From: Bryoerythrophyllum caledonicum
Taxonomy: Eukaryota > Streptophyta > Bryopsida > Pottiales > Pottiaceae
NCBI GenBank assembly: GCA_963971425.1
Contig: OZ020517.1
Span: 9,302,501 to 9,366,500 of the forward strand
DNA length: 64,000 bases
Reading direction: 5' to 3'
This document shows positions 3,001 to 26,844 of this stretch, one piece after another. The notes beneath the pieces are model-generated. The model saw nothing but the letters and a program-made list of their open reading frames with translations, ran no database searches and was not told the origin of the DNA. Both the position numbers and the translations under genes were made by a program. Positions within the stretch are counted from its first letter, which is position 1; each line of letters starts with the position of its first letter.

Positions 3001-3342
3001 ACCCACTATACCACGGCAAATACAAACACCCCGCCTCGAACCAACAACTCTACGTATCCTATGTATACATCACCAAACTCGAGAGATAGGTACTCCGGAA
3101 AACCTCACTCATCTCACTTTGATAACAAAAAACCTAAACATTAACAAGGTATACACCGAAATTGCGCCTCCCACACCTATTTCAACCCGTGTAAACCATA
3201 ACAAAAAATGGTCTAAAACCCCCTACACAATCATCCCTCCACTACCAATTACCGAACTGAGCCTCCCCATCCTCTATTACCAAACTAATACCGACCCTAA
3301 ATTTGACCCCAACTTTAGCTACTACACTGACGGCTCCTTTAA
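2..3342 (+). pseudogene. LINE ORF2 N-terminal part: reverse transcriptase domain, linker and start of RNase H
   Basis: One frame runs from base 2 to the MITE at 3343, with TAA stops only at 1490-1492 and 2207-2209. The RT domain (about 122-950) has NKALGPD, then YIDFKNAF with the first catalytic Asp at 500-502, then IQGDTLSPYLF, then AYADDLA with the catalytic Asp pair at 809-814, and GIELGVHKC. RT would copy the element RNA at the target site. Between the block 'YGEIH' and 'TRQLQTL' (about 405-440) the usual QEGF-type RT segment looks shortened, which suggests a small in-frame deletion. The frame reaches YTDGS, the first RNase H motif (Asp at 3329-3331), just before the MITE. The first ATG of the segment is at 122, but the true start lies outside the window. 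Confidence 0.88.
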
Positions 3343-4150
3343 CCCCTAAAGGACCAAGGCAATTTTTCCTCAAAAACACTCCAAAACTGCCATTTTCAAC
3401 TCATTCAACACGAAATGATACAAAATGTTTTTTATAAAACTTTAACCATAGGATCTTGTACTTGAGTTGTATGAAAGTGTGTGGTGAAAATTTTGGTAAG
3501 TTTGACCACACGGATTGAAAGATATCAGCCTTTGAAGTGAGATATAATCTCTTTTTGAGGTCATACTAAACAACTTCAACAAACTTCGACCACCTTCTAT
3601 GGCAACTTTTGGCACTATGGGCTGTGAATTTATTATATTAACTTGAAAAGGATCATGTTAGGCACATGTGCACCAAATTTTAGAAGTAGAAGAGGTGTAG
3701 AAGATGTCCTAAAAAATCCTACAATGCACCTATGTGCCGAGAATCAACAATACACTTTTTCTTTTGCATATATCATATCCTTCTCAAATATTTGGAATTC
3801 ACAAATCCGTACGGTAGATGCAAAGATCTTAGTTTCCTTTCCAAGAAGACATTTTCAGTCTTTTAAATGGACAAAAACTCAAATTTCTATTGAATTTAGA
3901 AGTTATTAAAGTTTGGTGACAGTATTTGTGATATGTCACACCAAACTGCTGCACTATTTGTATATGTAAGTGAAAATAAATTGTAACTTTTGAACCGTAA
4001 GTCGGAATTCTACGAAATTTGTGTCTACACAAAGCTAATCAAAAGTTGTTTATTCAATAAAAAATCTCAGAAAATAATGCCTAGAATTGAGAACGTGGTA
4101 CCTTACCCAAACTCAAAACGTCCCCCGAGGGGACATCGGTCCTTTAGGGG
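3343..4150. mobile_element. piggyBac-like non-autonomous element (MITE), 808 bp
   Basis: The ends are inverted repeats, CCCCTAAAGGACC at 3343 and its complement GGTCCTTTAGGGG ending at 4150. They are flanked by TTAA on both sides (3339-3342 and 4151-4154). TTAA target duplication with CCC-starting termini is the signature of the piggyBac superfamily. There is no transposase ORF. Removing the element and one TTAA restores the host LINE reading frame through the RNase H domain, which confirms both boundaries. Relatives lie at 33091-34013 and from 34521. Confidence 0.88.
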
Positions 4151-5686: not shown

Positions 5687-5696
5687 GGTACATAGT
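5687..5696. repeat. 10-bp target site duplication, left copy
   Basis: GGTACATAGT immediately precedes the left terminus of the 14.6-kb element and is repeated exactly at 20331-20340 after its right terminus. A length of 9-11 bp is typical of Mutator-like elements. Confidence 0.88.
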
Positions 5697-5740
5697 CAAC
5701 GACGCTAGCATGTGAGCAATGAGCAGTGAGCAATGAGCCC
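5697..5740 (+). repeat. Left terminal inverted repeat of the MULE-like element
   Basis: It holds GCTAGCATGTGAGCAATGAG (5704-5723) followed by further TGAGCAG and TGAGCAA heptamers. It matches the complement of the right end with scattered transitions. Confidence 0.85.
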
Positions 5741-6329
5741 TTTAGTAAATTTGGCAAAATTAGTACTAAAAAGGGATTATTACTATTTTAAAATATTAGG
5801 AATTACTTAAATTAGTATATTTGATGGTCCTATGACAAAGTGTTTATGATTGCCTTTGGCAATAAGAAAGCCGTGAAGGAGTTGTGAATGTGGCCGTTTT
5901 GAAGTGAATTGTCTAATTAACAGGCATTGTTAAAATCACTCATTACTTTTGAGTAATTCCATTTGGTGTCGTTGCTAGATGAAACATAGTGGAAATTGAA
6001 TATTGGATGAACAGAGATTGGATGAAGCAAAACGAATATTTCTGTTCGTCTATGCCAATTCAGATGTGAAATTTTTTATTTTGTAGTGAAAAGTAAGAAA
6101 CCTAATAACAAGCAAGAAGAAATCTAATTGACTCCAATATACGATTAAAAACAGGGAACACATTTTCTTTTCTGAGAAAAATGCCTCCTTGATACCAAAG
6201 AGGCCATTTGATGCTCCAATTTAACAAAAAATTGCTAAAAAAAAAGAACATCGAATGGACCTTTCACAAATCCATTTAGCAGCCCTAAATTGAATCCAAT
6301 GTTTCAAACAGGTGAAGAGGGATAAAATC

Positions 6330-6600
6330 CATACCAAAAAAAACCAAAAAAACTAAAATAAACCTAAAAAAAACACACAAAAAACACTACATAAAAAAAA
6401 ACTACAAAAAGACAATACCCAGAAAAAAAAACGAATGAAAGACATTATACAAAAAAAATTATACCAAAAAACCACTAAAAAAATTAGAAAAGCAGAAAAA
6501 TTAATACAAACATAAACACAAAAAAACACCTGAACAAATTTTTTAAAAAAAAGAAAAAGAAAAACCAAAAAAAAACTAGAAAAAAAAACAAATTTAAAAA
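6330..6600. repeat. A-rich low-complexity tract
   Basis: About 270 bp made of A runs broken by C, T and G singlets. The long Phe-rich minus-strand frames here are artefacts of composition. It lies between the left TIR and the 3' end of the transposase gene. Confidence 0.8.
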
Positions 6601-6633
6601 GGATAGAAGAAAAACATTGCTAGGGTGAAATGG

Positions 6634-6653
6634 GCTCTTCGGTACCGAAGAGC
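6634..6653. repeat. Perfect 20-bp palindrome with CTTCGG...CCGAAG core
   Basis: GCTCTTCGGTACCGAAGAGC is a perfect palindrome about 0.9 kb inside the left end of the element. The same core recurs many times between 12783 and 15096 and near the right end at 19851-19864. Confidence 0.7.
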
Positions 6654-6837
6654 ATAATTGGAGCTCCAATTTTTTTTAAAACCATCAGAATGGATAAATG
6701 ACTTCCTAACAAAGTGAAGGACAATGCAATTATATAACCTATCAATATAACAGTTTTGTAGTTTAGGTCCCTATGCACATGAAAGTAATAACCATGCGCC
6801 TAACTATATGAAGGCGACCTAGGTTTAGGCTAATAGC

Positions 6838-9800
6838 TTAGAGATCAATGCCTCGCAAAAGTTGTTGAATCTCATCAAAATTGAGACTCTCAGCGTGAAC
6901 ATATTTGTCGACTTGGCAGTCAGCCTTACAGAGGTATCTGTAAACATAATACAAATGCTTGCAATTCAGCCACGATTTCCGTTTGCCAAGTGCACCAGTG
7001 CTCATGGTAACAAAATAATCACAAGTGCAAGACGGCAAGTCACTAAGTGAAATTAGATAGGTCTTCTGCTTCGGAAAGATACCCGAGTCTAGTGTGATGA
7101 TTCTGCCATAACTAGGGTATGGAATCATGGTAACGGATTTCACGGTTGCCCGAACATTCCTAGTAGTCTCCCATTTGTTAAGGTGATCCACGGTAGGTGC
7201 CTTTGGATTCCTCTTTATCGTCCTTCCATAACGCTTTGTTGGATGGCCACCCGCATCTGGGGGGGTGGGGCTTGGAGTGTTTGAAGTAGCTATAGAAGGA
7301 GACATGTTGAAAAGGCGTCTAGGAGACATATCAAAGTCCTTCGTCTGAAGCTCAAATCCCCCATCTTCCAATGCCAGAATCTCAGCCTTAGTGAGATTTG
7401 TACCACGTACAATTGGCCAAGTAGTTGGAAGAGGGGGCCAATCGTGCACATATCTAAACTTGCCAGCTTGGACACAACGCACAATATCGTCCGAACAAAA
7501 CCAGAAATCAGAAGAAATAATTAATCTGGTCCCCCACTCTGTCATTTTACCATTGTAAGAAGGGGCAGGAGTGCCCTTTACCTTGTCACGGCATACCTTG
7601 GCACCACATTTGGTCTTCTGGCCCACTTGGACGGCATAGCACTACTTGGTGACTTTAGTGCACCGAGCAATGTGCCATTGATGTGGATTGCACTCAGTTT
7701 TTAGGATTGAAGTTGCGTGGCCCCGGTCTGACAATGGTTCTATGGATGGAGTAATAACCACACTTGAAGGACCGGCGTCTATTCGAGATCGAGTAGAGCG
7801 GGTTTGTACACGGGGATGAGAGTAGTTCACCTTATCATGGCGGTGAGAGTCTTCATCAGATCCCGACGGAAGATCTAGTTTTCGCTTCGCGGATCCAAAT
7901 ACCTCCTCGCCTTCCAAATGGGGAACTCGAGTAGCAAATTGATTTGCGCCAGGGAGCTTTTTGATTGCTGTAGAAACCTTTAGTGGATCCTTAGATCGTC
8001 GGGCTGCCCGTAAACGAAGTTCGTCGAGGTGGGGCCCAGTTCCCGAAGCGTGACCCTGTAAATAGGCCCAATAGTTTGTGGTTTGCATCATTGCACGCAT
8101 CATATCGTCCGTCGTAGCAACATATAAGCACGTCCCTCTATTGCCCGACATTTGTAACCATCTATTGTGCACCGTCTCAGATAGGTTGCAGGATGGCATT
8201 TCAGCCAATTCTTCAATGTCGAGGTCCTGTCGAGCAGTCAACAGAATTCAGGGATTTAGGTTAGGGCATGTGAAATCGAAGAGCGAAGATACATAGGCTT
8301 AGGGTTAGTGTTTAGAAGACGTAGAGTATGTATAGAAGGAGGTAAATCAATGTAGGGTTAGGTTTGTGATAACTTACCATGTCCATGAAGCTACCCCATT
8401 GGCGGTAGCGGAAGTGCCAAAAACCGAGCCAATCGTCCAGCTCACGTACAGCCTCCTCCGTTGCTGCACGAGATGAGAGCCACCAACCTTTAATGCCGAG
8501 GTATAATACTTCGGCCTCTTCAAATGATTTTGCATCTCTATATTGTCTACATAGCTTGATATGTTGGTCTTGTAAATCAGTTCGGATAAGCTTTTTTGTG
8601 TGCCGATTGAGTGACGTTACCCAGTGAAGAAAGCATGTCTTCTCTCTATCAACCATCTTTGCTGTTGGGTCACCGCTTCCGTAGATTATCCTCACAGCGT
8701 TCCAGTTAGCCTGTGCACTATCCGCCATGAAACCCTTGAAATTAGGGTTTGTGATACCGTGGCGAGCCATCACATTGTTGAGAGCTGACCACATCAACTT
8801 CTGAGACTCAACGACCTCGCTCTGCATATCACACATGGCGATGCTCATCACCCGGCAGTATTCAGGATCGTACATATGGCATGCCATTGTAGTCCAACCC
8901 TTCACACGTTTGACATGGTTGAACATGATCCAGGAGTTCTGCAGGTCTCCGCCAATTTGCATTCGCCTTACGAGATCCACACCGCTCCCTGGACCTTCTT
9001 CAGACATCTTGAAGAGGTACACCTTATCTTTTCCTTGTCCCGGGAAAACGCTATCTTGGATGTATGCGTAGGGACTCTTCAACTTGAGTTTGATGATGTT
9101 GTCTAGTGGTCCTCCATTTGCATTGGGACGTAATGTAGAGATAGCGTTGCGGATGTTGGGTGAGCTTAGGATTCGAAATCTCTCCATCACCGCCACAAGG
9201 GAATCTCCACAAAGGGATTCGGGGACTCCCTCCCGATCAAGTGCAAACAATTCGGTGGACAAGAACTCTTTACTTGTGGCAAGAGCAATTGCAGAGTTCT
9301 TGCCAGTTGGGGTTCTGTGGACCTCATTACTCACAAGCTCAGAAACTCTTTGAAGAGACTCTCGACATTCTCCTTTTGCGGTCGGATGTTGGTGGGTGCC
9401 CACGTGAATACAAGCTCTTCCAATTCCACTCTTGTTAAGAATGTAATACATTCTGCACGGACAAGAGGCAATGCAAGAGGGCGGAGACTTACAAATTCGA
9501 CATTGGACAGTGGAATGCGCAGGTGGCTGCTCCCCTACGAGAAATACGTGCGTTGTAATGCCATCCCACTCCGTGTCGTTGTGGAAGCCGGAGCGACGCA
9601 ATCTCGGACAACTATCGTTCATGCATTGGAGGTGACCGACACAACTTGAGTATCTGAAGGTAAGACCATAGTCATTGACAATGTTAGTAGTATGTGTTTT
9701 GGTCCATAGGCGACCATCATATCTTTTGTCCATCCCTTCCATCTTACGAGCGTATGATGGAGACAAATTACTCGGCATGGGTGGGAACTCAAACATTACG

Positions 9801-10462
9801 TCACCATTGAACTCTGAAGGAAGAAATTGGACTTTCTCACACCGTAGAGCATCCAAATCCAAAAATTTCAAATCACTCTTTCCACGTGGTCTGCACTGTA
9901 ACTGCTTAAGACAATTGAGGATGCTTGTAGGATCTGAGGCTGGATGAAGAGGAGGACGTGAATTCTGAGACGGTAGAGTAGAGACTGACTGTGACAAAGT
10001 TTCAGGGACTTCAAAGACAGTTTCTGTAATTGGAGATAGGAAGGAGAAACGGGAATTTGATCTAGGAACAGATTCATCATCTGAGGACTCACTAAGTAGG
10101 ATAGTCGCACTATCAAATGATTCAACTTTGACTGGAGCTGGAGGAGACAAATGCACAGTCGGCTTCTTTGACTCTGAAGTGGAAACAGAGGGGCAAAGGA
10201 TTGGATTTCCGTAAACCCTATATTTTCCTGGCAAAAGTCTCCAGAGAAGGTCACCATCATGGATATGTTTCTTCTGCATAATTGTAGACAATACTAACTC
10301 TCCGTTTGGATCAAAGACTTCCTCCTCAATCCACATAGACCTCATAGCATAATTGAAACGATGAGTGAGCATCGATTCAAAGACCCATGCTACGTCATCG
10401 TCACCTAGAGGGACGGAGATTGGAACGCTTCCATCTCCACCACGAATAGTTGCCATAGCCAT
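6838..10462 (-). pseudogene. MULE-type transposase with SWIM zinc finger, two exons, one premature stop
   Basis: Exon 1 is 10462-8378 (ATG at 10462; donor GTAAGTT) and exon 2 is 8226-6838. The join is in phase and gives about 1,157 residues. The middle resembles the DDE/RNase H-fold core of MULE transposases: an Asp-containing block FMADSAQANWNAV and, further on, CFLHWVTSL, recalling the C..H signature of this superfamily. Upstream is a Cys-rich block (about residues 265-355). The C terminus has a SWIM zinc finger, CTC...NCKH (CxCxnCxH), followed by YYVYRYLC. Its product would cut and paste the element using its TIRs. An in-frame TAG at 7642-7644 (plausibly from CAG) interrupts exon 2; otherwise the frame is intact. 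The N terminus is unassigned. Confidence 0.78.
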
Positions 10463-11121
10463 GGCGTGTGGGAGGACGTAAACTGCTGCTACTACTACGG
10501 AATTGACCCAGTACGAACACTCTTACGAATGTGGGAATTTGTATGAATGGATATATGGTAGAAAAAGAAGGGTTGAAATAGAATAGAGACGTTGTGAGTA
10601 TATTAATTTGGTGAATTTAAAATGTAAGTTTTAGTAGTTTGGTAAGTTTTTTAGAAGTGCTAGTTACAGATGAGCAGCAGCTGGCGGCTAGCATGTATGA
10701 AATTAGAAATGTCTAAAATTATGTTACGATACACGTCGATCTAATAGTCTAATGAAAAAGTGGAAAAGAAGCTAAAATGGAAGCTACAAGAAAGGTTATT
10801 GCAAGTTAAATCTTAAAGCATTAATCTCGTGGGGTGCAAGTGATGATGCCTTAACGAGTATTTAGAAATTGGGTTTTAAATATTGTGATACTTGAGTTTA
10901 TTTCTAACATATCATAGTAGAAGGTAGTGGGCAAATAATGCAGATGACAGTTAGCATTGATTAATTTTGGTTATGAACTAATATTGTCATTACATATAAT
11001 ATTTACGCCTATTCAATATAGTTGAGTGGTTGGTATCTTTGAACTTTAGGGTAGCAAGTGGGACCGCATAACTATAGTGTGGAAATGCTTTAACGTTAAT
11101 GTGTAGTGGTTGAAAAGAGGA

Positions 11122-11481
11122 ATGCAGGAGGAGGTGAAGCGCAAACGCTATAAGTCTAGATTCAGGTTTTCCACTCCAAAGCAACTCCTGAAGTCTAGAA
11201 TGGCACGACGAACAAGGTCTAGGAGATTGGATTTGGATGGGACTTCGCTTAGTTCAACTTGTGATAACATGGTGTGTGGTGACCATTTCGAGCGCGAGGA
11301 GGAGGAGACGGGCATTGCGAGTTTATTAGGCAATAGGGACGACATCGTTCAAGGAATGCAAAGTGTTATAGTCATGGGAGAAGATGACAATTTGCGCATG
11401 ACCAACAACCCTGTGGAGTCAGCATATGACAAAGAAAACATGGATTTTTCGGCCGATGAATCTCAAAGGGTAATTTCATAA
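11122..11481 (+). CDS. Possible small accessory ORF of the transposon, function unknown
   Basis: ATG at 11122, 119 residues. The first 45 residues are rich in Lys and Arg (KRKRYKSRFRF, RRTRSRRLD), resembling a nuclear-localisation or nucleic-acid-binding tail; the rest is acidic. It lies between the two divergent element genes and is transcribed away from the transposase. It could be a first exon of a spliced accessory gene or an ORF by chance. I recognise no domain. Confidence 0.3.
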   Translation: MQEEVKRKRYKSRFRFSTPKQLLKSRMARRTRSRRLDLDGTSLSSTCDNMVCGDHFEREEEETGIASLLGNRDDIVQGMQSVIVMGEDDNLRMTNNPVESAYDKENMDFSADESQRVIS

Positions 11482-12701
11482 CTTTTCTGATGTGGTGTAA
11501 TATTTTGAATTTTCTAATGAGGTTTTGAATTTTTGTCTATATCATGAGTGGGCTTTGGGGGCTTTGGAGTATGTTTGGATTTTAGATCTAAATTTTTTTT
11601 CTATCTAAAAAATTAAATTGCTTTCCAAAATACATGGCTACTTTTTAAACCTGAAGTATCTGCAATATATTTTCTAATTATAAACACCTTCATTATGTGT
11701 GATTTTGAGCGTGTAATGACCACCACATGGTAGAACATAGATCCATAGAATTATGCAATGTGTAGTACAAATGTATGCCAATATCTTGAGTCAAAGAACG
11801 CTGACACTGTCCGCACTGGGAACGAAAAAACCACAATGCATTTTTCACTAGACTCTGATTTTACAATCTGTGCGGTCAAATTTAATGAAATTTTTTACGT
11901 GTCACATTGTAGTAGTGAACTAGAAGATCCTACGGTTGGATATAGTAGGAATTTTTTACACCCAGTATTGCAACGCCACATCTTAGAAGGGTAGTTTTGA
12001 AGTGTTTTTGGTGTGAAATTGTCAAGGAATTCTAGGGGTACGTCAAGGGGAAGTGGAAAGTATGCCTATATCTTGAGTCAAAGTATGATGACTAAAATTT
12101 AAGATCAAATGGATAATAGTGGTAATAAATTGTTTCAATTAGTCTTTCAACCATGCATCTCCAAGTAGTTTTATTTAAGTGTTTTGGTGTGAAACGGGAT
12201 GTAATCATGTGAATGAAGTTGTGCCTTTGAATGGATGTGCGTATAATGGATGAGAAGTTGGTAGGTCATTGGGGAGGTTCACGTCTGTTTGATTTCTCCT
12301 TTGAGTGTTGTCGGAGAGGGGGCGAAGTTGTTTTCAGGGAGATTTTTGGGAGCGGTCTGATGTTCTCAGTGTTGCGGTGCGTGCGCAAAGGGTTTGAGAG
12401 GGTTTGAGTTCGCAAGGATTGCAAGCATTTCACCACTTCGTCAGGTGTGTTCGGCAGTCGATCATCTCAGTCCGCCACTCTTTTCCTTCAAGCGCATTCG
12501 CAAAGTTTGTCGATCATTGCTGAACTGAATCGTCAGTTTGAATCTGGATTCTAGATTTTGGTGTCGGATCTGGATTTTGAACTATTCTTTGTTGGGGTAC
12601 TGAGACTTTAACGCTAGATCTTGATTCTATGAAGCTCCATATGATCTCGACTCTGAAGATGTGAAGTAACTTTGAAGTTCTGTCGGATCTGGAACTTCGA
12701 C

Positions 12702-12751
12702 GTCGATCTCAATCTCGATCTTGATGTCGATCTCGATCTCGATCTCGATCT
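12702..12751. repeat. GATCTC hexamer microsatellite
   Basis: Interrupted copies of CGATCT/CGATCTC inside the MULE-like element. The Arg-Ser rich minus-strand frame across it is an artefact. Confidence 0.75.
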
Positions 12752-13335
12752 GAAGACGTGAAGTTCGCAAGGGTCAATGAGACTCCTTCGCTGCCGAAGG
12801 AGCATGCTTGCCACTGCTTAGCATCCGAGACTCATCACCTTCGAGACCTATGATAACCTAATAGCAGGTGTGTTGCTTCTACTGCAGCAGCCTCGTGACT
12901 TTGGTGGCGCCTGCATCGTAAGTCGGTGTAGATGTAGGAAGCAACCGACTCTGAGCTTTTCTATAAACTGATGGCCTTCGGTGCCGAAGGAGGTGATCCA
13001 GCCTGCCTTCGGTGTCTATTTCATGTCAAGGGTTTGACTTCGTTGGATGAAGAAGCGACGTCAATATTATATAATAAGTTGTTTTGTTGGGGGGTGACGG
13101 TGGGGAAGGCTGAGTGTTGTGGGAACATGATTGGGGGCACCACGTGTTGGAACAGGCGTCTTGGGGTTGGGTGCGTTGTACGGGTTGGCCTGGGTTACGA
13201 TCACAGTGGTGGTGGGGGACCATATGACACTAGTCAGCACCTAAAGCAATAATCGATAGAATTGGGACTTTCTGTTGCTACGGCATGAAATGACTGAAGG
13301 AATATTGGGGGGATGTACTTTTGAAAGGAATAGCG

Positions 13336-13697
13336 ACCTGGTTGATCCTGCCAGTAGTCATATGGACGTCTCAAAGATTAAGCCATGCATGTGTAAGTAT
13401 AAACTCTTTTGTACTATGAAACTGCGAATGGCTTATTAAATCAGTTTTCTTCGATGGTACCTTGGCTACTCGGATAATCGTAGTAATTCTAGAACTAATA
13501 CGTGCACAAACTCCCGACTCAGCTGGCCAGGAAGGGACGTATTTATTAGATAAAATGCCGATGCCAGTATTGCGGTGAATCATGATAACTTGTTGAATCG
13601 CGCGGCCTCTTGCGAGCGTCGTGGTTTCATTCAAATTTCTGCCCTATCAACTTTCGATGGTGGGATAGAGGCCTACCATGGTGGTAACGAGTGATGA
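13336..13697 (+). rRNA. Truncated, diverged 18S rRNA 5' fragment (pseudogene)
   Basis: It begins with the universal 18S 5' end ACCTGGTTGATCCTGCCAG and continues colinearly through CTCAAAGATTAAGCCATGCA, GTACTATGAAACTGCGAATG, GTAATTCTAGAACTAATACG and GGGACGTATTTATTAGATAA to GGTGGTAACGAGTGATG, where homology stops. It therefore covers roughly the first 380-390 nt of 18S, with substitutions and small indels. It has an exact mature 5' end and a missing 3' part. It lies inside the MULE-like element, so it is not part of an rDNA unit and is not a functional rRNA. Confidence 0.92.
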
Positions 13698-14040
13698 GCC
13701 TCACCTTTCACGTGTCGATGGCCTGTCATGAGCTCGTGTCGATGGCCTGTGTCGAGCTCGTGACTTTGCAGGAGGGAGTGTTGTCAACCTGTAACGCGAG
13801 GGGGTGGGGAGAAGTGTTTGCTACTGGTGCCAAGTTCCGCCGGGTCAGGCCCACCTTGTCCGGCATCGGTGCACACATTGTGTTGACTTGCAGTCCCACT
13901 GAGATTTCGGTGCCGAAGTGTATGGTTTTTGGTGCTGAAGTATGGAAAGTATTATCAGGGTTTCGGTGCCGAAGTATGGAAAGTGTTGATGTTCAAGGGA
14001 GCACCTTAGTGCCGCATGATCCACACGAGCTCATGCGGCC

Positions 14041-14513
14041 GCGACACGACACGACACAGCACAGGCGGCCGCACCATCGACAGTGTGCCATATTATTCAG
14101 TGTCGAGCATGAGCTCATAATTTTCAGTGTGCCATATTATTCAAATGTATGTGAAGTGCCGAAGTGTATGGTTTAGGTGCCGAAGTGTATGCTAGTGTTT
14201 AGGTGCCGAAGACTCAAATATGATCAAGGTTTCGGTGCCGAAGGACTCAAAGTATGATCAGGGTTCCGGTGCCGAAGTATGGAGAGTGCCGATGTTAATG
14301 TGAGAGTGCCCATGTTCATTTGAGAGTGCCGAAGTTCATGTGAGAGTGTCGTTGTTCATGTGAGCACTGAGAATGCCGATGTTTATGTGAGAGTGCCTCA
14401 TCACAGCTCGACACAGGCAGCCGCATCATCGCACAGTGTGCCGTATTATTCAGTATCAAGCATGAGCTCATACTATTCAGTGTGCCATATTATTCATATA
14501 TATGCTAGTGCAG
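14041..14513 (+). repeat. Duplicated segment and short minisatellite
   Basis: A segment of about 110 bp at 14045-14155 (ACACAGCACAGGCGGCCGCA... to CATATTATTCA) recurs in diverged form at 14401-14513. Between them, 14281-14398 holds about five degenerate copies of a unit like GAGAGTGCCGATGTTCATGT, roughly 22-24 bp each. This is non-coding spacer of the MULE-like element. Confidence 0.7.
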
Positions 14514-15233
14514 ATGTGTATGCCTGTGTCGCGGCCGCGGTGTGGGCCTGGAGGTTACACTGAGGTTGGAATGTGAGGTTCCAAGTATTGATCGCGACCT
14601 TCACTTCACTTCAATTATTTTTGACACCGAGGGCCTTTGGTGGCGAAGAAGATGATCCAGCAGGCCAAATTTTTCTAGAAATAACGTTTAAGGTCAAAGT
14701 AATATTGACATCCAGTATGGTTCAACGCATAATCATAGAAACCTGTGAGTCTCGGCTGCTAGCTCCCGACGTCTACTTGAGAACTCTATTGCACATCATC
14801 ATGTCATTGAGAACTTAGGTGACCACAGGGCTTTCGGTGCTGAAGGACGAAATTAGTAATGAGTTCACGACTTTCTGCATCAGATGATGACGTGGGTGCT
14901 TTTAGAACTTGACAAGTCCGTTATGGAAATTTAATATATTGTGTCCCGATCCGTGGCCTTCGGTGCCGAAGGACCCTCTCTTCCAGACTTTTGATAATCG
15001 CTCGTTTGCAGCTTTTTTGATTTTGAAGGTTGAGGCTGGCAAAGTTTCTTTATCTGGAGATCTACTTCTAGCCTGATTTTTATCCTTCGGTGCCAAAGGC
15101 AGTTTCACAATTATTTTATTTTCCCATTCCGATCTCGACTCTGAAAAGTGATGCTTGTTGAAATGGTTTGATCTGTAAGCGTTGATTTCTTGGTCCATTG
15201 TCTTTTGTTCTAACATGGAATTACAATTTGCAG

Positions 15234-18200
15234 ATGGACGTTAACGAGAAGATACGGGAAGTCACTGTTCAGGCTACACATGGGAGAGATCAGGCTGACG
15301 GTGAAAGAATTGCTTCGCTAGAGGACGAGGTTTCGCTTAGAGTCGAGGATGTAATTGGAGGCTCGGTTGTTATCGGCGACTCACCTAATCAGGAAGGTGC
15401 AGCGGCTCTAGCGGGCGAGGCGATAGCTGGAGGCCAATCAAAGAGCATTGATGGTTTGGGTGGAAACAACAGTATGAGTCACCTAACCGTAGATGAGGCT
15501 GAAGACGCATTCAAACTAAAGGAAAAACTTGATTTGAATTCAATCATTCAAGAATTAAGGTTCAATCCATTTTCTCAATCCAGGTTGAAGATTCTATTGT
15601 GCAGGATGATACCTCTACCATTAGTTCGACCACTTCTGCTCTCCGATGTCAGAAGGTTGGAGTATGAGTTTGTTCATGGATACCATGAGGGTGACCGTGT
15701 ATTTTATGTTTCCATTACCGACAACAATGGAAACAGTCGCCAGGTTGATGACGAGATTATCAAAACTTGGGACCTCCAATGGGTGTATGAGAACGACGAT
15801 TTTGAATCGGAACTGTTAAAACATGCCAGTTGGTCCCAGCTCTCTTGTAAGATGTTCTTTATCTGGGACGGCAATCACAGGCATCAGGCCTGATCAGGAT
15901 ATATTTCACGCATGCATTTTGCGGATCGGAAGTGGCATTACTCGGTAGACTCTTTCGTATTGAATTCCAAGGGGAGTACTGGGATTTTACTTAATGCAAT
16001 GAATGACATCAATCGGTGAGTTTTCAAGACACATGTTCAAGGTCAATTACCAATGGTTTTTCGTTGGATTTTTATGGCTAGATATTAACGAATATGATGT
16101 TCTCACTTCTAGCTCTACTAAGAACGCTCATGTGAAGACTAATCTAGTCCATCGTTTGCACCGCATCAACACGTATGGACAATTGAAGCTAACCAATTTT
16201 AAGGACCTTCTCACCCACGAAGAATATAAGTCCTGTGAGAATCGGCCCAAGACTACGGCTTGGTATCCTCTGACATCAGAAGTATTCATCAAGTTTTTAA
16301 ATCGGGTATAGTTTCCTAAATTTTTTGGATTCAGAATTTGGGTTGACCATTTAGATATGCTCGATGAGCTAAATTGTATGGTATTTGCAGCATGAGGTTG
16401 CCGCAGCTGCAGATGAAGCAGGTCGACTCTATTTGGAGCGAACTTCTCCATAGAACAGGACTTCTCAAGGTATTCACAACGCAATGAATGAAGCATCCGT
16501 CGCAAAGTTAAAAAGTTTCAGGACAAAATTCGACAAAATGGCAACAGTGGCTAATCCAAAGCATGGCCCCGAATTCTTGGATGCGGTCAGTTCTCCTCCA
16601 CTCTCTAATTTATGTTCTAATTCAATTTGATTTCATTCTATTGAGATATCTACTCATGCTTGCAGATTAACTACCATTGGTCCAATTTCAAGAAGCCGGA
16701 GATGTCTTTAGAATAACTACAGAAGGTTTCGGGAACTACTGTGCCATTGCAATTCAAGGTTCGTTGGTTGCAATGGTGGAACGCTGGCGAAATGAATCGA
16801 GTTGCTCTAAGATTCCCACCTACTGGAGTGACAGATGAGAAACTCGATGTTTGGTTGCACAAAGCTTCGTTTTGGGCTGAGGTAAGTCATGTCGTTGCTT
16901 CAATCATTATATCTACTTCTCTGTAAGTATGATCACTAATGTGGTTCTCTTTAATCTATCAATTGGAGGCCGCGACAGTAAGAGTCGTTAAAGAGACTCT
17001 AGCATTGGAGAAGTTGAATGTGGACTGGGAAACGAACTCCAATGTTGACGAGATTGCTAATTACATTGAGAAGTACTGTATCATTGTATGGGACCAAGCC
17101 TTCTACTCTATATTCAGAAAGCAAGGAGGATTCGATCGGACAGCTATCTTCCTCAAAAATGAGGGAAATGAAAAGGCCATGCAACGACTCGTTTACCGGT
17201 AAGTTCACCTCATGTGTATATTGTCTTAATGAAATTGACTTTGATAAGTTAGCTTCAATACTTAAGAATTTGTAGTTTTATGATTTTTGGATTTATTTCT
17301 GCGAGAGAATAATTTGATTTCTTTGGTGCCAAAAGGGAGTCCGGAGTTACATGGAAATTTAGATCCAAATCATGTATATGAAATGTCTAATGACCCCTTT
17401 TTATTGTGTAGATATTTTAAAAGAGAACTGCACAGCAAAGGTGTCATTGATCGAAAATCAATGCCCAAGTTTTTCGGCGCCTGGACAGAAAAGGGTTCAA
17501 TGTGTATGCTTACCGCTGCCCAACTACGAGCGTTCAATTCATCCGAGCACCAGTCCTGTCCATGGTACCTTGAGTGCCCTCGCAAGTTTGCTCCAGCGGA
17601 CGAGGAGAACGAGAAGGCTAAACAAGCACCACCTGCTGAACTAGTTCAGGATCTCCATGATCTTGCAGAAGACTTAACCGATTTAACTGAGCCAATTGTA
17701 ATTGTGACAAAGAAGGGTGGCAAAAAGGCTTTGGAGTCGATGGAGGGGAAGAAGAAGAAGGATCCAACAGTTGGTAAGAAAGCGAAAGCTAGTGTCTCTA
17801 AGGGGAAGGAATTGGAATCATCCACAGTTGAAGTGGACCAGCCTCATGTTCCTTCAGCTACAACTACAGTTCCATCTCAAGTTCATACGGTGACCGACAC
17901 TCCTTTGTACCCTCCTGAATTGCTTTCTGTCACGACTGAGGAATTTGCTGCTTTGCAGCTCTATGCCAAGAGCTTCACACGCACTGTTACACACGGGATT
18001 GAGGCAACCGTTTTACCATTGTGTACTTCTATTCCGACGCTCATTGACTTCATGGTTTCGAATCATCAACTTCCTCCAGAGTGGTTGAAAATCTTGTCTT
18101 TTGCTCAAAAGGTATTAAATTCAAACCTCTCGTACTAATTGTACTTAATTAATTTTTAAGATCATATACATGTGCATAGTTTTCCATGATACTGTTGTTG

Positions 18201-19563
18201 ATTATATATGCCCTCTGTGCTAGGCTGGTCGAGGGATGGAGTGGCGTCTTGGTGGAATTCCCAAGCGTGAGGCTTGCCTCGATCTCATTATAGCGGACAT
18301 GCCAGATGGTTTGCCCATTCCTGGTTTGTCCCTTCGCCACTCAGTCATTCCAAAATAGAATGATTTTACAGAGGACTGGTCGGAGCCAATTTTTGAGTTT
18401 GCTAGAGACACTTTCCAGGATGACGGAGCTATTGTACTCTTCCATCCTGATAATCCAACCGTTCGTGAAGCAACAGACTCCTTTGCAGAGGCCTACGGAT
18501 TTGCGCCCCTCCATGATTGGTGGGGCGTTAACGAGATGCATCTCACGTCTTACAAGAGTGAGAAGTGCACTGTAAGTTTGACACCACACTTAGTCCATCT
18601 TGGGGTTCAATTTAATTTCATTTCCTTTATCCTTCTCATTTTTTTATTTTTGCAATACGCAGACAAAGCGGTTCTGGATCATTCTTTTCATCAAGACATC
18701 CTATAAAGATAAGGTTCATTCAAGGTTTTCAATTGAGAAAAACTTGGATGTTAGCAAAGTGGAGACTGACATCGTTGGTGAGGGAGTTCTCCATAACTTT
18801 TTGACCGCCAAAATGTCATTGAAGAATGGAGACGTACCTTGGCGAGGGGCTAGAGAAAAGAGCCCTATTCTACTCCAAATGTTGATAGAAAGCTTCTCGC
18901 AACCAAGGCATGTTGTCCTAGACTGCAACGCATCTACCGGTAACTTCTTCTACTTTCTATTTTCTTCAATCTTGTTCTATCATCACTCATTATTTACAAG
19001 TCTAATGGTGTCCTCAATGATCCTAGGTGCGAGCGTGCATGCTTGCAAGAAAACTGGGCGCCATGTGGTTGTCTTGGAGGCCGAAGCAGACATCTTTAAA
19101 GTTGTGCTTGCCCCTCTCGAATCATTGGAGATGTTAGAGGACTTAATGCAGAAGAAACGGAAAGAACCGGATCTTCTGGCAACTCCCTTGTGGTTAGGCC
19201 TCTTAAAAGGGTCCCTAAAAACCGATTGAGTAAGTAAGTCAAATCCTTGCATTCTCATTGTTCTGGTGAATTTCCTATCCTACAAATTATCATTGTTGTA
19301 GTATAATTTCTCACTTCTCTTCACTAATGTAACAATGTTTTCTTAATTAGTTTGGTAGATCAAATGAAGAGTCTGCCTAGCCCGATGTCTTTGCCTTGTT
19401 ATATTGAGGCTATTGCGGTTCAGCTCGGGGAGATTCAAACGCCACATCGTGCGCCAATTTCACGAGTATATGATAGTAGAGTGCACAAATATCTTGATTT
19501 GGAGGCTGTGGAAGCTTTAGACGATGGATCTAGTGCTGGATCAGCCAGTGCTGGAAGTTCCTA
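15234..19563 (+). pseudogene. Transposon-borne ParB-like plus permuted beta-class DNA methyltransferase-like gene, decayed
   Basis: ATG at 15234 follows a TTTGCAG acceptor-like site. Exons I can trace are about 15234-16013, about 16030-16305, 16391-16585, 16666-16881, 16969-17198, 17412-18111, 18224-18571, 18663-18939 and 19027-19229, with a possible tail at about 19350-19563. Joins from 16305 to 19229 all keep phase. The N-terminal part has FFIWDGNHRHQAW, recalling the GNHRxxA motif of ParB/Srx domains. A Lys-rich linker (about 17690-17820) follows. Exons 18224-19229 show DLIIADMP (like motif IV, DPPY), a variable stretch, then EKSP..L...LI and VVLDCNASTGAS...GRHVVVLEAE (like motif I and its flanks). 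Motif IV before motif I is the permuted beta-class order. Stops at 15891, 16451, 16714 and 18356 break it. The fold is inferred from motifs; activity and target are unknown. Confidence 0.6.
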
Positions 19564-19850
19564 AATCACCAGGGTTGTTGGTAGGCTTACGGCTACTTCA
19601 GTATGTTTTATTTTGTGCAATTTTGTTTCCTGACCATGCGACGGTTACCATTGTTTTTTCTTTTAATTTTGAACTTAATAGTGCGACTAAAAGGGCCACT
19701 ATTTTTGTGTTCTAATACATCTTAAAGCCGTTGCATTGCAAGTCCAAGAACTCTATTTCCTGAATTTTGAGTATTTGCTCCCCTTGATCCCACGCATCTC
19801 TAATCTTGATTTTTGTCACTAGTTATTTTTAAACGACAACCAACAAGCTT

Positions 19851-19864
19851 CTTCGGCACCGAAG
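19851..19864. repeat. Palindrome near the right end of the element
   Basis: CTTCGGCACCGAAG is the reverse complement form of the motif clustered at 12783-15096. It lies about 470 bp inside the right terminus. Confidence 0.65.
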
Positions 19865-20282
19865 GTTGCTCTGACCTTTTTTTCTAGTTAATTTGTTGTT
19901 TGTCTGAGTTCTTTGCCTTGTCTCGTATATATCTCTAAATTTCTATAAACTTACTTCACTCATTGCGGTTTTCTGATTTTCCCAATACCCCAACTAACGT
20001 CTTTCATTTCCAAGTCATTTAAAAATCTGAGTCTTAACATCCTTAAAAACATCACCATTTATGGACAAAGTCATTCATCTCCATTCATCCATGCAATCTA
20101 TCATCCATCTACATTCATCTTTGTTCTCCAAAGACATAGAATAATGGCCTAAATACCACCATTACTCTACTTTTAATGACTTATTTCTTCAATGGATGTA
20201 GGATTCTCGATTAAATTTTTAACTAAACTTCAAACAAATTTCTAGGTAATTGGCCTAAAATTTCAAAAATATTACCTCACTG

Positions 20283-20330
20283 CTCACTGCTCACTGCTCA
20301 CTACTCACTGCTCGCATGTTAGCAACCCTG
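20283..20330 (-). repeat. Right terminal inverted repeat of the MULE-like element
   Basis: Read on the minus strand it begins CAGGGTTGCTAACATG, then GAGCAGTGAG and four more TGAGCAG or TGAGTAG heptamers. It matches the left end at 5697-5740. Confidence 0.85.
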
Positions 20331-20584
20331 GGTACATAGTGTCCACCCTCGAAAAGGGGAAGTAGTTCCATACTACTAACCCATGCCCGGTGGGCATGGA
20401 CTTAGTGGTGGAATGAACGGACACTTTATCCACACGGCCCCCTTCGGGAACCGGCGTTCTTCTTCTTGTACTTGGAGTTGAGAGTGCCCATTCATGAAAG
20501 CACCACATTGAAATAAATAATTTTAAGGTTAGCCTACCCCCCATATTGTATTCCTTCTCAAATGTTACACCGAAGTCATTTTGA
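20331..20584 (+). mobile_element. Displaced 3' UTR tail of the LINE, with TSD copy
   Basis: It starts with the right copy of the 10-bp target duplication (20331-20340). Because the target is LINE 3' UTR, this segment should be the rest of that UTR. It contains a small GC-rich hairpin, CCATGCCCGGTGGGCATGG (about 20381-20399), and AATAAATAATT near 20512. I cannot fix the exact 3' end of the LINE without another copy. Confidence 0.6.
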
Positions 20585-23059: not shown

Positions 23060-23689
23060 CTATAGTATTAAGCAACAACCAACCTCTTCAATGCTATTGG
23101 ATTCTCTCTTAAGATGGACCACCTTTCTAATGCCATAATTGCATGATTCCTTGGTCACATCTATAACCCCTTCTTCAATATCTTGATAAATTCGTTTTGT
23201 AATGTTGAAAAAAACTTCTTGAACATTGTGAGAAGATTTTGCTGATGTCTCCATGAACATCAAACCATTATCTTTGGCAAACTCTTCGCCTTCATGTGTG
23301 GAAACAACTCTTTCATGTTCATTGTCACACTTATTGCCAATCAACATGATGGTTGTGCTAGGATTGGCTTCTTCTCGAATATCTCCCAACCAACTTGCGA
23401 GGTGATCAAAGGACAATCTTTGGGTGACGTCGTACACCAATAACACACCACAAGTTCCCCTATAAAATGATCTTGTGATTGAACGGAAGATTTCCATACC
23501 CGCAGTATCAGCGATTTGGAGTTTGATGCGTTTTTCATCAATCTTGATTGTTTGAAATCCTACCTCCGCACCTATGGTTAAGTCATGCACATGGTAAAAT
23601 TCATTGTTGATAAACTTTCCTTGTAGACATGATTTTCCAACCCCTGAATCTCCAACAATAATATACCTGAACATATATGCATATGACAT
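23060..23689 (-). CDS. Divergent intronless Rab2-like small GTPase, 209 aa
   Basis: The start is the ATG at 23689 because MSYAYMFRYIIVG matches the canonical Rab2/RABB1 N terminus; the frame upstream of it is AT-rich and not Rab-like. The P-loop GDSGVGKS, switch-I VHDLTIG, GNKCD and ETSAK are intact, and NHLASWL-type Rab2 segments are recognisable. The G3 motif is unusual: IADTAGME replaces the normal WDTAGQE, so the catalytic Gln is Met and the invariant Trp is Ala. The C terminus is GCCLIL, ending in CLIL (CaaL) rather than the usual Rab double-Cys end. Rab2 proteins direct ER-Golgi and endosomal traffic. No intron is present, which suggests a retrocopy that kept its frame. It may be a functional paralogue or an unexpressed copy. 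Confidence 0.85.
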   Translation of the reverse strand: MSYAYMFRYIIVGDSGVGKSCLQGKFINNEFYHVHDLTIGAEVGFQTIKIDEKRIKLQIADTAGMEIFRSITRSFYRGTCGVLLVYDVTQRLSFDHLASWLGDIREEANPSTTIMLIGNKCDNEHERVVSTHEGEEFAKDNGLMFMETSAKSSHNVQEVFFNITKRIYQDIEEGVIDVTKESCNYGIRKVVHLKRESNSIEEVGCCLIL

Positions 23690-24264
23690 GATTTCATATG
23701 TTATGCAAACCGCTTTCCAATATAAATATATCACAATAGTATCCCTAACCTTAGAAGCACAATAGAAATACACATACAACAGAAAATAAATAGGTTGCAC
23801 ACGAGTTTTTTTTACTTTATATCCTTCAAAATGAAATGCAAAAGTTGAAAGCAAAAGGAAAAATGTCATAGTGATAAAAATATAAAAATTAGAACAAAAG
23901 TGAATCGTACGATATCGCAAAAGTAAAATCATTTCACAAAAATAGAACTTTGAGTGAGAGGCAGAAATCTATATTCCAATTTGAAACCTGACTTGTTATT
24001 AGGGAGGAAAGCAAAGGCGTGATAATAAGAAAAACATACTCAGAATGCCTGCCTTACAAAAGGTGACATAAAAGAGGTGTACAAGTGATTTCACACACTA
24101 GCAAGTGTGACTCCTTTGAGAAGATTTTTGTTGTGAGGGTCTAAAGTTTTCCACATATTTTGTCACCCACTAAGTCCTCTCAGTTGAACTCAAACGTCTG
24201 GAATCTATGTCTGCATTGTCTAGCCCCCAAAATGCCAAAGAAAACTAGGAATGAACAAATCTAT
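23690..24264. other. Spacer upstream of the Rab2-like ORF
   Basis: AT-rich; nothing supported beyond possible promoter sequence of the Rab-like gene. Confidence 0.45.
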
Positions 24265-24708: not shown

Positions 24709-26787
24709 TCAATGAGCGACAGGGGTGGCTCTATACATGGCGGAGTAGGCCAGGCAGAGGCGCTGGTCGCGGTGGTCCCCCCAGCCGCCCCAGCCGCGGA
24801 ACCCAGAGGAGTAGCCTTTGATGCGGAAGGTGTGGACGGGCCAGCGGGGGTCGATGTTGGGCACCATGTCGCCGGAGTCGATCAGGCCCAGGCGCAGCGA
24901 CGAGTCGCGGCACTCCGTGTCGCGGCTCTTGCTGTAGCCCTGGTGCAGCCCGCACCGGCCGAAGTGCACCGCGCTCGTGCGTGGCCCCCGCAGCGTGTAG
25001 CGTGCGCCGCCGAACGTCGGGTAGATGGTGGCCCACATGGTGATGTCCCAGTTGTAGTCATCAAACGTGCAAAACACCTGCGCTTGCGCGTGGATCCGCT
25101 CCCACACCGTCCGGTTGAACGCGTACCCCACGTTGCCCACCTGTATGGGAAAAAACCTCGTGTTAGTGACGCGTTGTGGAGAACTGTGATGAAAGATTTA
25201 TCCAGAAAACAACACTGCTAACCTCAAACAGTTATCATGTTAGCTGCAGATTCTCCAGCTGGCTAGCATCCACAAAAAACTACATAACCTCAAAAAACAT
25301 CATGTTAGCTACTTGCGTACCAAATTCTAGAGGTAAAGGAGGGCTGTAATGTCAATTTTATAGCTCATTAGCATCAAGAGAAAACTGTTTAGAAGGAAAC
25401 GGTGCTTGCCTTCTCGGAGACGAGTTTTGAGAAGCCTTCCCCTCGGGATTTGACGTCGAAGGGGGCGGCGTTGACGGCGATGCATTGGGGGCACTTGGTT
25501 TGCTTGGCCCTGGCCAGGATCTGGATGTTGCGGTACGCGTTGGGGAGCAGGTAGTGATCCTCCTCGATGAAGAGCATGTGCGAGTCGAAGTTTTTGGTCT
25601 CCTGCAGGCCGTCCCAGACCGTGTTCATCATCCACCACCAGTGGTGCTTCAGCGACACGATGCGCACGCTGCGGTGGTTGCCGTACTGGTCGGAGTTGCC
25701 CGTGCACCCCAGGCGCGCGGCGTCGTCCTTGTTCTGGCAGTCACCCGGGCTGATTCCCGGGAACTGGCCTTGGTATAAGTGCGGCGACCATGGCGCGAAG
25801 ATCTGCTTCACCTGCAGAGAAAGAAGGGGGCACAGACAGAAATCAGCTTCCTCTCACACAGGAATCAGCGTCTGCAAACATCGGATCATACATACACACA
25901 TTCATCATCTGCAAAGATTGATATCACACACATAGATCATCATCTGCAAAATCATCGATTCATACACACACACAATCATCATCTGCAAAGATTGAGCACA
26001 TAAAAAATCATCCTGGTTAAATTTCTCCTGCAAACCCTACTCAGAGAAACCCGAGAATGCAAGCCCTGATCAGAGAATAATCAAGTCTCCCATTTCCTTT
26101 TCAGGTTATCTTTGTTGTAGTACCGTGCTAAGGAATTCAAGTGTACACAAGCAGATACATGAGAATTCCCACCCTGCTAAAAAACTGAGGTTTAAGCTAA
26201 GTTAAAATTTTGGAGTAAAAAATTTTAGGAGCAAATTTTTAGCAATGATTTTGGAGCAAATTTCTAGATCAAAGGTTTGAAAGCAAAGTTTCGGAATCAA
26301 AAGTTCAGAGCAAAGTTTTGGAAGCGGCATTCCGTACCTGACAGAAGCGGATTCCCTCCACAATGGCGTTCACGTCCTCGTAAAACCCATCGTGGCTGAC
26401 GATGAGGAGCGTCTCGTTGATCCCCCGCACTTCCTTCAACGCCGACACCACAAGCTCCAGATACTTGGCCCGCGAGTGCACGTACAAGACGATGATGACG
26501 CGATCGTCCGCCAGGGTCGGGAACAGGTCGCGGTTGCGCGGCGGCATACGGTTACGCGCCAGCAGCTGGCTCGCGAGCTCTTTCAGGGGCGGGAGGTCAA
26601 CGCCTCGGAGACGGAGCGCCTCCAAGTCCAGCGCGGGCGCGGCCCCATCCAGCCACTCCGTCGTCGCGGCGAGGTACGGCCCCAAGACGAACGCCAGGAT
26701 GACAATCTGGAGCACCAGAAGCACCCATAGCTGCCGCCCCCGCAAGCAGCTCGCTCCCCCGCGCTGCTTGCTGCTCAACAACCCCAT
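24709..26787 (-). CDS. MGAT2: Alpha-1,6-mannosyl-glycoprotein 2-beta-N-acetylglucosaminyltransferase (GnT-II)
   Basis: Three exons, 26787-26338, 25811-25410 and 25140-24709, give 427 aa, close to the roughly 430 aa of plant GnT-II. The enzyme adds GlcNAc to the alpha-1,6 mannose arm of N-glycans in the Golgi, making complex glycans. It is a type II membrane protein: a short Arg-rich cytosolic tail, then a membrane segment LWVLLVLQIVILAFVLGPYL. Family motifs include YVHSRAKYLELVVSAL, a nucleotide-sugar-binding FIEEDHYLLP (EED in place of DxD), FCTFDDYNWD, VHFGRCGLHQG and Cys pairs. The ATG at 26787 is the first in frame; the upstream frame begins only with GTG. Intron 2 uses a GC donor (AAG|GCAAGC). 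Exons are very GC-rich compared with the surroundings. Confidence 0.96.
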
Positions 26788-26844
26788 CGCCCTCCTCCTC
26801 TCACCATCCCCCCATTCCCCCCTCACGATGCATCAACCCCCTCC

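Follow-up and report, generated by a model that had tools for sequence, protein, structure and literature searches.

The window analysed here, a 64,000-nucleotide stretch of DNA from the moss Bryoerythrophyllum caledonicum, holds a 14.6-kb transposon with two genes, a transposase and an accessory gene encoded in the opposite direction, which joins a ParB-like to a DNA methyltransferase-like part; palindromes are scattered through the non-coding DNA of the element (Table 1). Bounded by terminal inverted repeats (TIRs) and target-site duplications and found again in near-identical whole copies, the transposon is a real element. The duplications measure 10 bp in all three copies in which both ends were seen (the window and two others), and two whole copies, F9 and F21, are about 96–97% identical to the window element from position 5712 on, except in a repeat-rich stretch near 14.2–14.4 kb.

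Table 1. Features of the transposon, in window coordinates. F9 and F21 are whole copies of the element; L048 is a relative.
Feature	Position	Strand	Remarks
5′ target-site duplication GGTACATAGT	5687..5696	.	identical 10 bp again at 20331-20340
Whole transposon, 14.6 kb	5697..20330	.	3′ end common to copies; F9/F21 alignment
5′ TIR, with subterminal GTGAGCAATGAGC-type repeats	5697..5737	+	
Palindrome TCTTCGGTACCGAAGA	6636..6651	.	
Transposase, second exon frame, 469 aa in F21	6841..8247	-	96% to F21; 39% to L048
Transposase, large exon frame, 736 aa stop to stop (predicted)	8315..10522	-	97% to F21; 43% to L048
Palindrome CCTTCGCTGCCGAAGG, 1 mismatch	12785..12800	.	
Palindrome CCTTCGGTGCCGAAGG	12975..12990	.	
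Palindrome, core TTCGGTGCCGAA	13904..13919	.	
Palindrome, core TTCGGTGCCGAA	13960..13975	.	
Palindrome within 34-bp tandem repeat (14197-14277)	14229..14244	.	
Weak palindrome, 3 mismatches	14634..14649	.	
Palindrome, 2 mismatches	14831..14846	.	
Palindrome CCTTCGGTGCCGAAGG	14957..14972	.	
Palindrome, 1 mismatch	15084..15099	.	135 bp upstream of ATG
ParB-like/methyltransferase-like gene, pseudogene in window copy	15234..19564	+	model from 16 copies and window
Exon 1, N-terminus and ParB-fold domain (GNHR)	15234..16015	+	
Exon 2	16113..16305	+	gene model
Exon 3	16391..16585	+	gene model
Exon 4	16666..16881	+	gene model
Exon 5	16969..17198	+	gene model
Exon 6, contains Lys-rich linker	17412..18111	+	gene model; 138 matching rows in genome
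Exon 7, catalytic half of methylase fold, motif IV DMPDG	18224..18571	+	single exon
Exon 8, PWRGxREK and motif I	18663..18939	+	
Exon 9, end of AdoMet half	19027..19233	+	
Exon 10, C-terminus	19351..19564	+	gene model
Palindrome TCTTCGGCACCGAAGG	19850..19865	.	
3′ TIR	20276..20330	-	
3′ target-site duplication GGTACATAGT	20331..20340	.	

Genome-wide, 33 sites resembled the 3′ end of the element at ≤3 mismatches, against none for a reversed-pattern control, and 22 of them have an exon-6 match within about 6 kb; the remaining 11, which have none nearby, may be decayed or non-autonomous copies. The two-gene layout that the original prediction proposed to look for elsewhere recurs, with transposase and accessory gene side by side, in the two whole close copies and in L048 (transposase about 40% identical). 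As for the class of the element, TIRs with a target duplication of 8–11 bp are described for Mutator-like elements (PMC6446971), in agreement with the 10 bp observed here. A SWIM-like CxC...CxH was spotted by eye in the second transposase exon frame, and the SWIM zinc finger profile PF04434 matched at E 0.17, short of the cut-off, in the transposase of L048. Since the Pfam MULE transposase profile matched none of the transposase frames of the window family or of L048, the designation as a two-gene, Mutator-like DNA transposon is provisional.

The accessory gene was modelled on 17 aligned sequences, namely the window and 16 of 20 fetched copies, with L019, L024, L026 and L028 excluded as gapped or truncated. 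It consists of 10 exons and not 11, because the stretch 18324–18371, considered and rejected as a 48-nt intron, is coding, and relatives conserve ...PxWN... there. Intact copies encode a protein of about 1121 aa, ordered as ParB/Srx-type fold, middle part, Lys-rich linker and permuted N6/N4-methyltransferase fold. When spliced by the family model, the window copy runs into 7 in-frame stops, beginning at codon 220, and also contains a frame shift. On the other hand, in 5 of the 17 sequences the reading frame is open throughout and every donor has GT (donors being the sites covered by the per-copy splice check), so that the gene is not a product of chance; these frames, together with dN/dS values of 0.28 and 0.30 in comparisons of intact copies from subfamilies A and B, also led us to reject a decaying captured fragment. 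The accessory protein is under purifying selection.

The ParB-like, Lys-rich and methylase motifs on which the original prediction was built were all found where it had placed them in this plus-strand gene, with one correction: GNHRHQA is present, but the W quoted after it (QAW) is replaced in the window by a TGA codon, W being the reading of the majority of copies. GNHR, the GxxR phosphate (P) motif of Box II, is invariant in the 11 aligned rows of the ParB-like part, for which modelling yielded a predicted ParB/sulfiredoxin-type fold. The ParBc profile (PF02195) matched none of 11 members at E 10, and we therefore file this part by its fold only; the claim of ParB likeness holds for the predicted fold and fails for the profile. 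Foldseek returned no ParB match below E 0.001, searches of PHROGs and NCBIfam and of PDB sequences with a profile of this part gave nothing useful, and a protein search with its alignment gave 746 uninformative matches. The whole accessory protein, used as a query in a protein search, had no matches, and no DNA-binding domain was identified in it.

In the methyltransferase-like part, PF01555 was matched above the gathering score (35.1 vs 26.7 bits, in L021) and at E 1 or better in 8 of 9 members. In the structure model (pLDDT 62.8, translated introns included) it is predicted to fold as a permuted, beta-class N6/N4 methyltransferase with a recognisable AdoMet half, and in the alignment motif IV precedes motif I, as had been proposed. 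Since a ParB/Srx fold is predicted and PF01555 is matched, the protein is not one devoid of profile or structural similarity to these families. A protein search with the methylase part gave 2 uninformative fragments, and scanning its alignment over the genome and viral contigs gave nothing useful.

The active site departs from the canonical motifs. Motif IV reads D-[MIVL]-[PSH]-[DEH]: the Asp is kept in all 19 listed sequences, the first P of (D/N/S)PP(Y/F/W) has become M, I, V or L, and the aromatic residue is Asp or Glu in 18 sequences and His in a decayed copy, so that F, W or Y occurs in none, in line with the earlier suggestion that motifs this degenerate may point to binding and not to methylation. 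Motif I, canonically DPFxGSG in beta-class methyltransferases, is D-x-x-[AT]-[SA]-TG, having lost a glycine; the TG ends the motif in all eight rows that reach it, and the acidic residue after the next strand is retained. CcrM and M1.HpyAVI, which belong to the closest solved folds and sequences for the methylase part, have a canonical catalytic motif, in contrast to the D-x-P-D/E of the transposon protein. Because the catalytic (D/N/S)PP(Y/F/W) is missing, we regard this part as a homologous fold and not as an active member of the family. The conserved acidic motif IV would also suit a genuine enzyme of another kind.

The non-coding DNA of the element carries dispersed dyad-symmetric sites with the core TCGG-NN-CCGA, whose outer base pairs are family-specific and change symmetrically on both sides (T:A, C:G or G:C at ±1); a contig from another source also has this core, flanked by another outer sequence. 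The window element has 11 such sites. Nine are located in the stretch between the two genes, at a distance of over 5 kb from both element ends, whose nearest sites are some 0.5 and 0.9 kb away; the palindromes are enriched upstream of the accessory gene. Among 13 upstream regions, which are not 13 independent cases because several loci are closely related to each other, the exact core is absent from three (L032, L035 and L041), L035 having a TCGT variant. In a strict shuffle test there was nothing countable in L009, L021 and L041, L037 was unremarkable (51 of 200) and L032 yielded an unrelated word; L039 has one core, without symmetric flanks, inside a coding stretch.

Related elements share the shape of these palindromes but not the letters, a hint of a self-recognition system such as some transposons use against silencing. 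The reading we favour, tentatively and at somewhat less than even probability, is that the accessory protein binds the palindromes of its element and marks its own copies against host silencing, the methylase fold being something other than an ordinary 6mA/4mC writer; the anti-silencing or self-modification role suggested originally is, likewise, putative. A dimer of the protein would bind the palindromes and perhaps load and spread in a nucleotide-dependent manner, as ParB does from parS; the bound protein would mark the copies of the element, so that promoters and ends stay accessible despite silencing, in a VANC-like role, and the methylase fold could serve to bind AdoMet or to contact DNA, or could be an enzyme whose chemistry is altered. 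A more specific version, rather unlikely in its entirety, is a private ParB/parS-like system, in which a nucleotide-switched ParB-fold dimer would load at element-specific palindromes, spread and hold the copy open, like plasmid VirB against H-NS in bacteria, with the remodelled methylase domain as an AdoMet-dependent sensor and with protein and sites co-diverging in each family.

These readings have to be weighed against three others. The first, which is also what has been suggested in print for the algal proteins, is an active methyltransferase that deposits 4mC or 6mA on the transposon encoding it, in or close to the palindromes, for self-marking or protection. It would fit the PF01555 score, the nearest folds, which belong to DNA 6mA/4mC enzymes (bdelloid N4CMT among them), the invariant Asp and TG, and the 4mC or 6mA predicted for an Ectocarpus protein (PMC12477816); the altered positions of motifs IV and I make it improbable. 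About as doubtful is a transposition accessory that binds subterminal and internal palindromes and builds or regulates the transpososome, silencing being uninvolved. The second gene of MuDR, mudrB, is a precedent for such an accessory gene in a Mutator-type element, and the orientation opposite the transposase and the sites near the ends and between the genes agree with it, but most sites are remote from either end, and the usual binding site of MULE transposases is the TIR itself. Finally, the palindromes could be host transcription-factor sites retained to drive the genes, unrelated to the accessory protein, as their enrichment upstream of that gene and the CCGAC-like plant motifs in some arms would suggest; the outer base pairs changing in step between families, the sites towards both ends and the shared core in the contig from another source make this very unlikely.

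How parasites evade silencing can be studied naturally in transposons that bring along genes for chromatin or DNA modification. The present family adds a predicted recognition code of sequence-readable palindromes, intact copies for expression and a methylase fold with a catalytic motif altered throughout the family, and because of these the question whether the protein writes a mark or blocks one is directly testable; what was a short mention in an algal genome paper becomes a system for which both cis and trans candidates can be named. A mainly viral or prokaryotic family was considered and rejected: there were 2 viral-contig loci, at 28%, of which the inspected one (L046) codes for a 2758-aa protein of several domains that has the ParB-like motif in common, and one genome contig (L049), labelled as a cyanobacterial MAG, in which the gene is split as if by introns and a gap containing stops falls at motif I. 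A long frame of L049, at about 2221–3900, contains exons 5–8 and hardly any intron sequence.

The implied novelty of a ParB–methylase combination in a transposon did not hold, as it is already in print for algae: the account of Ectocarpus Sola1-1_Ec32, as far as available, describes a ParB-methyltransferase accessory gene with a product of 1104 aa and cites green and red algal transposons alongside (PMC12477816). Compared by description, both systems are giant DNA transposons with a ParB-like part and an N4/N6 methylase in one protein of similar length, encoded opposite the transposase; the Ectocarpus element is a Sola1, whereas that of the moss window is Mutator-like, with TIRs, 10-bp duplications and a SWIM-like motif, in a plant-type host, and the candidate target sites, selection test and active-site analysis given here have no counterpart in the portion of that account consulted. 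Beyond this precedent, no palindrome/ParB-methylase transposon system was found in the open-licence PMC literature. The same two domain types are joined in phage ParB-fold/N6_N4 methylase fusions, for which the available text suggests anti-defence or phage–host roles, although these are prokaryotic and enriched in prophages (PMC12704722), whereas bdelloid N4CMT is described as a host gene with a chromodomain, an active 4mC writer that silences transposons (PMC8885841, as far as consulted). For the VANC proteins of Arabidopsis VANDAL MULEs, the sources, as consulted, report proven binding and hypomethylation, a non-palindromic VANC21 motif (YAGTATTAY) and no ParB or methylase fold (PMC5735166, PMC10398659), whereas palindrome binding by the ParB-like transposon protein is putative. 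The likeness, which lies in the way of working and carries no evidence of homology, is that of a Mutator-type accessory gene with a short motif that is concentrated in the non-coding DNA of its own family and differs between relatives.

Within the 437-Mb genome, the transposon of the window G000:C4:9302501-9366500 is one of a family of copies. The two others for which both ends were in hand (F9 and F21) are also bordered by 10-bp duplications; from position 5712 through the 3' end they share about 96–97% identity with the window, except in a repeat-rich stretch near 14.2–14.4 kb. When exon 6 of the ParB-methylase gene was compared with the genome, at least 138 matching rows were obtained, at least 27 of them with identity of 80% or more, at about 24 places, all these counts being lower bounds. 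The close copies belong to subfamily A, about 95–97% identical to the window, or to subfamily B, about 90% identical. Sites resembling the 3' end were found 33 times in the genome, 22 of them within about 6 kb of an exon-6 match; the 11 with no such match inside about 6 kb (e.g. G000:C8:6110752, G000:C4:29153596 and G000:C14:14558643) are possible non-autonomous or decayed copies.

Features of the element and of its surroundings, in window positions
Feature	Position	Description
Transposon	5697-20330	TIR ends CAACGACGCTAGCATG... / ...CATGTTAGCAACCCTG
Target-site duplication		GGTACATAGT, present at either side of the element
Frame of 124 aa	11107-11481 (+)	Between transposase and ParB-methylase gene; Arg/Lys-rich start; preserved in both whole copies, F9 and F21, at 125 aa; may be a third gene, or an exon
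Two tandem arrays	14197-14364	Units of 34 bp and 20 bp, intergenic; palindrome core inside the 34-bp unit
Frame	23060-23968 (-)	By eye, resembles a plant Rab GTPase
Frame	24709-26832 (-)	By eye, resembles N-acetylglucosaminyltransferase I (GnT-I-type); with the Rab-like frame, suggests a plant host

The majority sequences of both subfamilies are open across identical exons with GT-AG borders. Donors were scored for GT copy by copy in 17 aligned sequences (the window and 16 of the 20 fetched copies), and five have both an unbroken frame and GT at all donors: L009, L020 and L021 in A, L014 and L018 in B. The window copy carries seven stops, the first at codon 220, which is Trp in the majority. 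The first gene model had taken 18324-18371 as an intron; this was rejected, and the stretch is read as coding, because relatives keep a ...PxWN... peptide there, and it was verified to be open in L021 and L018. The dN/dS between A and B was 0.28 (L021/L018) and 0.30 (L009/L014), and ranged inside the subfamilies from 0.11 to 0.52, values derived from very few changes. Open frames and dN/dS together therefore show that the protein is maintained, and the reading of the gene as a captured fragment was rejected.

The original prediction had proposed a search for the same two-gene layout elsewhere, and the one diverged pair of loci examined has it: the ParB-methylase segments of L034 are 26–41% identical to those of the window family, the DNA upstream of it (L048) encodes a transposase that shares 43% and 39% identity with the two window-family exons, and the two genes are divergent, oriented as in the window element. 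In profile searches neither the window-family nor the L048 transposase matched the MULE profile, and SWIM was matched weakly, at E 0.17 only, so that the term 'Mutator-like' rests on target-site duplication length, terminal inverted repeats and a SWIM-like pattern. The combination of ParB with a methylase, whose presence in a transposon had been implied to be a novelty, is not new, being in print for algal transposons (PMC12477816); such fusions occur in phages too, as the prediction had stated (PMC12704722). C5 or Dam-type methylases are known from other transposons (PMC5890265), as is TET/JBP (PMC12730594). In the open-licence PMC literature, we found no plant-type Mutator-like carrier of a ParB-methylase gene, no loss of the catalytic aromatic in such proteins and no co-diverging palindromes of such elements.

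Related sequences were also observed in other sets. L049 (CADCWO010000058.1), a contig recorded as part of an uncultured Synechococcales MAG, holds most of the ParB-methylase gene with intron-like breaks, and is thus probably eukaryotic DNA in the wrong bin. Many unannotated ParB-fold exon frames occur in public sequence sets (P0003-P0122), with 42–72% identity to the query among the 120 matches listed, and an IMG/VR contig (L046, 18-8294) encodes a 2758-aa multidomain protein in which GAHR/GNHR ParB-like motifs occur at least twice.

Palindromes were spotted by eye in the element and then counted by script. The 64-kb window has 12 sites like CCTTCGG-NN-CCGAAGG, with up to three mismatches, of which 11 fall within the element; F9 and F21 have 10 each. 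Across the 18 of 20 close copies with the 3' end found, which are non-independent, 63 palindromes with up to two mismatches lie in 102,544 bp inside versus none in 25,274 bp of flank. By blastn with default words, alignment between the upstream regions of L009 (A) and L018 (B) is confined to palindrome sites; with 7-base words, a 32-bp stretch immediately preceding the ATG and some short pieces align as well. All seven exact cores (TCGG-NN-CCGA) of the window are in non-coding parts of the element, and the core is absent from all seven spliced coding sequences of close copies; the diverged locus L039 has one core in a coding stretch, with asymmetric flanks.

Ten diverged loci were scanned for 10-base words occurring at least four times. 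Repeated palindromes lie upstream of the gene in three (CCTCGGTACCGAGG in L031, GGCGTCGGTGCCGACGCC in L034, CCTCGTCAACGAGG in L035), L032 and L042 have repeated words of other kinds, and L037, L038, L041, L044 and L048 have none. A blind test on 14 loci counted perfect palindromes (2-bp centre) that occur repeatedly, and compared the counts with those in 200 dinucleotide shuffles: no shuffle reached the observed count in L018, L014, L034, L035, L031 or L033 (the L033 word overlaps the core and that of L035 is a variant), one to five did for L038, L042, L045 and L032, the last with an unrelated word, and 51 did for L037, while L009, L021 and L041 had no repeated perfect palindrome to count. In the 13,691 bp pooled from upstream of 13 loci, partly near relatives (L032/L033/L045; L038/L039/L042), the core occurs 18 times and ranks top among all 256 four-base arms; the runner-up, TCGT, occurs four times, and each of the remaining 11 arrangements of the TCGG letters is seen once or not at all. 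The pool comprised two close copies and 11 of the 15 diverged loci; L036, L040, L043 and L044 lacked an exon-1 anchor and were excluded. At least one core lies upstream in 10 of the 13, and eight occur in their remaining 73,422 bp. L049 has three, of the GGTCTCGGATCCGAGACC type, in the 746 bp preceding the first matched codon, which may not be the start. A 20-base palindromic word is present three times, nearly unchanged, in each of the related L033 (1302, 7374, 7873) and L045 (154, 4890, 5382); it is seen several kb further downstream too, and may belong to a nested element.

In 30 distinct 18-base sites from nine groups, bases beside the core are complementary in 27 (±1), 22 (±2), 14 (±3) and 5 (±4), where 7.5 are expected. 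At ±1, subfamilies A and B and locus L037 have a T:A pair and L034 has G:C; in the remaining groups most sites have C:G. A centre of two bases leaves too little room for the loop of an RNA hairpin, and the natural reading, from sequence, is therefore a candidate dyad-symmetric DNA site that would be read by a dimer.

By analogy, we favour the ParB-methylase protein as a putative element-specific recognition and anti-silencing factor, whose methylase fold would serve as an AdoMet-binding or altered-activity module; a VANC-like pattern in cis and the behaviour of ParB and VirB both point to this role. The parS site is palindromic, and VirB is kin of ParB. ParB loads at parS and then spreads in a CTP-dependent manner (PMC12704722), and the plasmid-encoded, CTP-requiring VirB counters H-NS silencing (PMC10653881). 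VANC proteins, encoded by the VANDAL elements of Arabidopsis, bind short motifs that are concentrated in non-coding DNA of the protein's own family; they remove DNA methylation at these places and evolve together with the motifs (PMC5735166 and PMC10398659). The likeness of the present element to VANDAL is on the cis side, in family-specific motifs in non-coding DNA, and its 34-bp tandem units with the palindrome core recall the tandem repeats in which VANC motifs lie.
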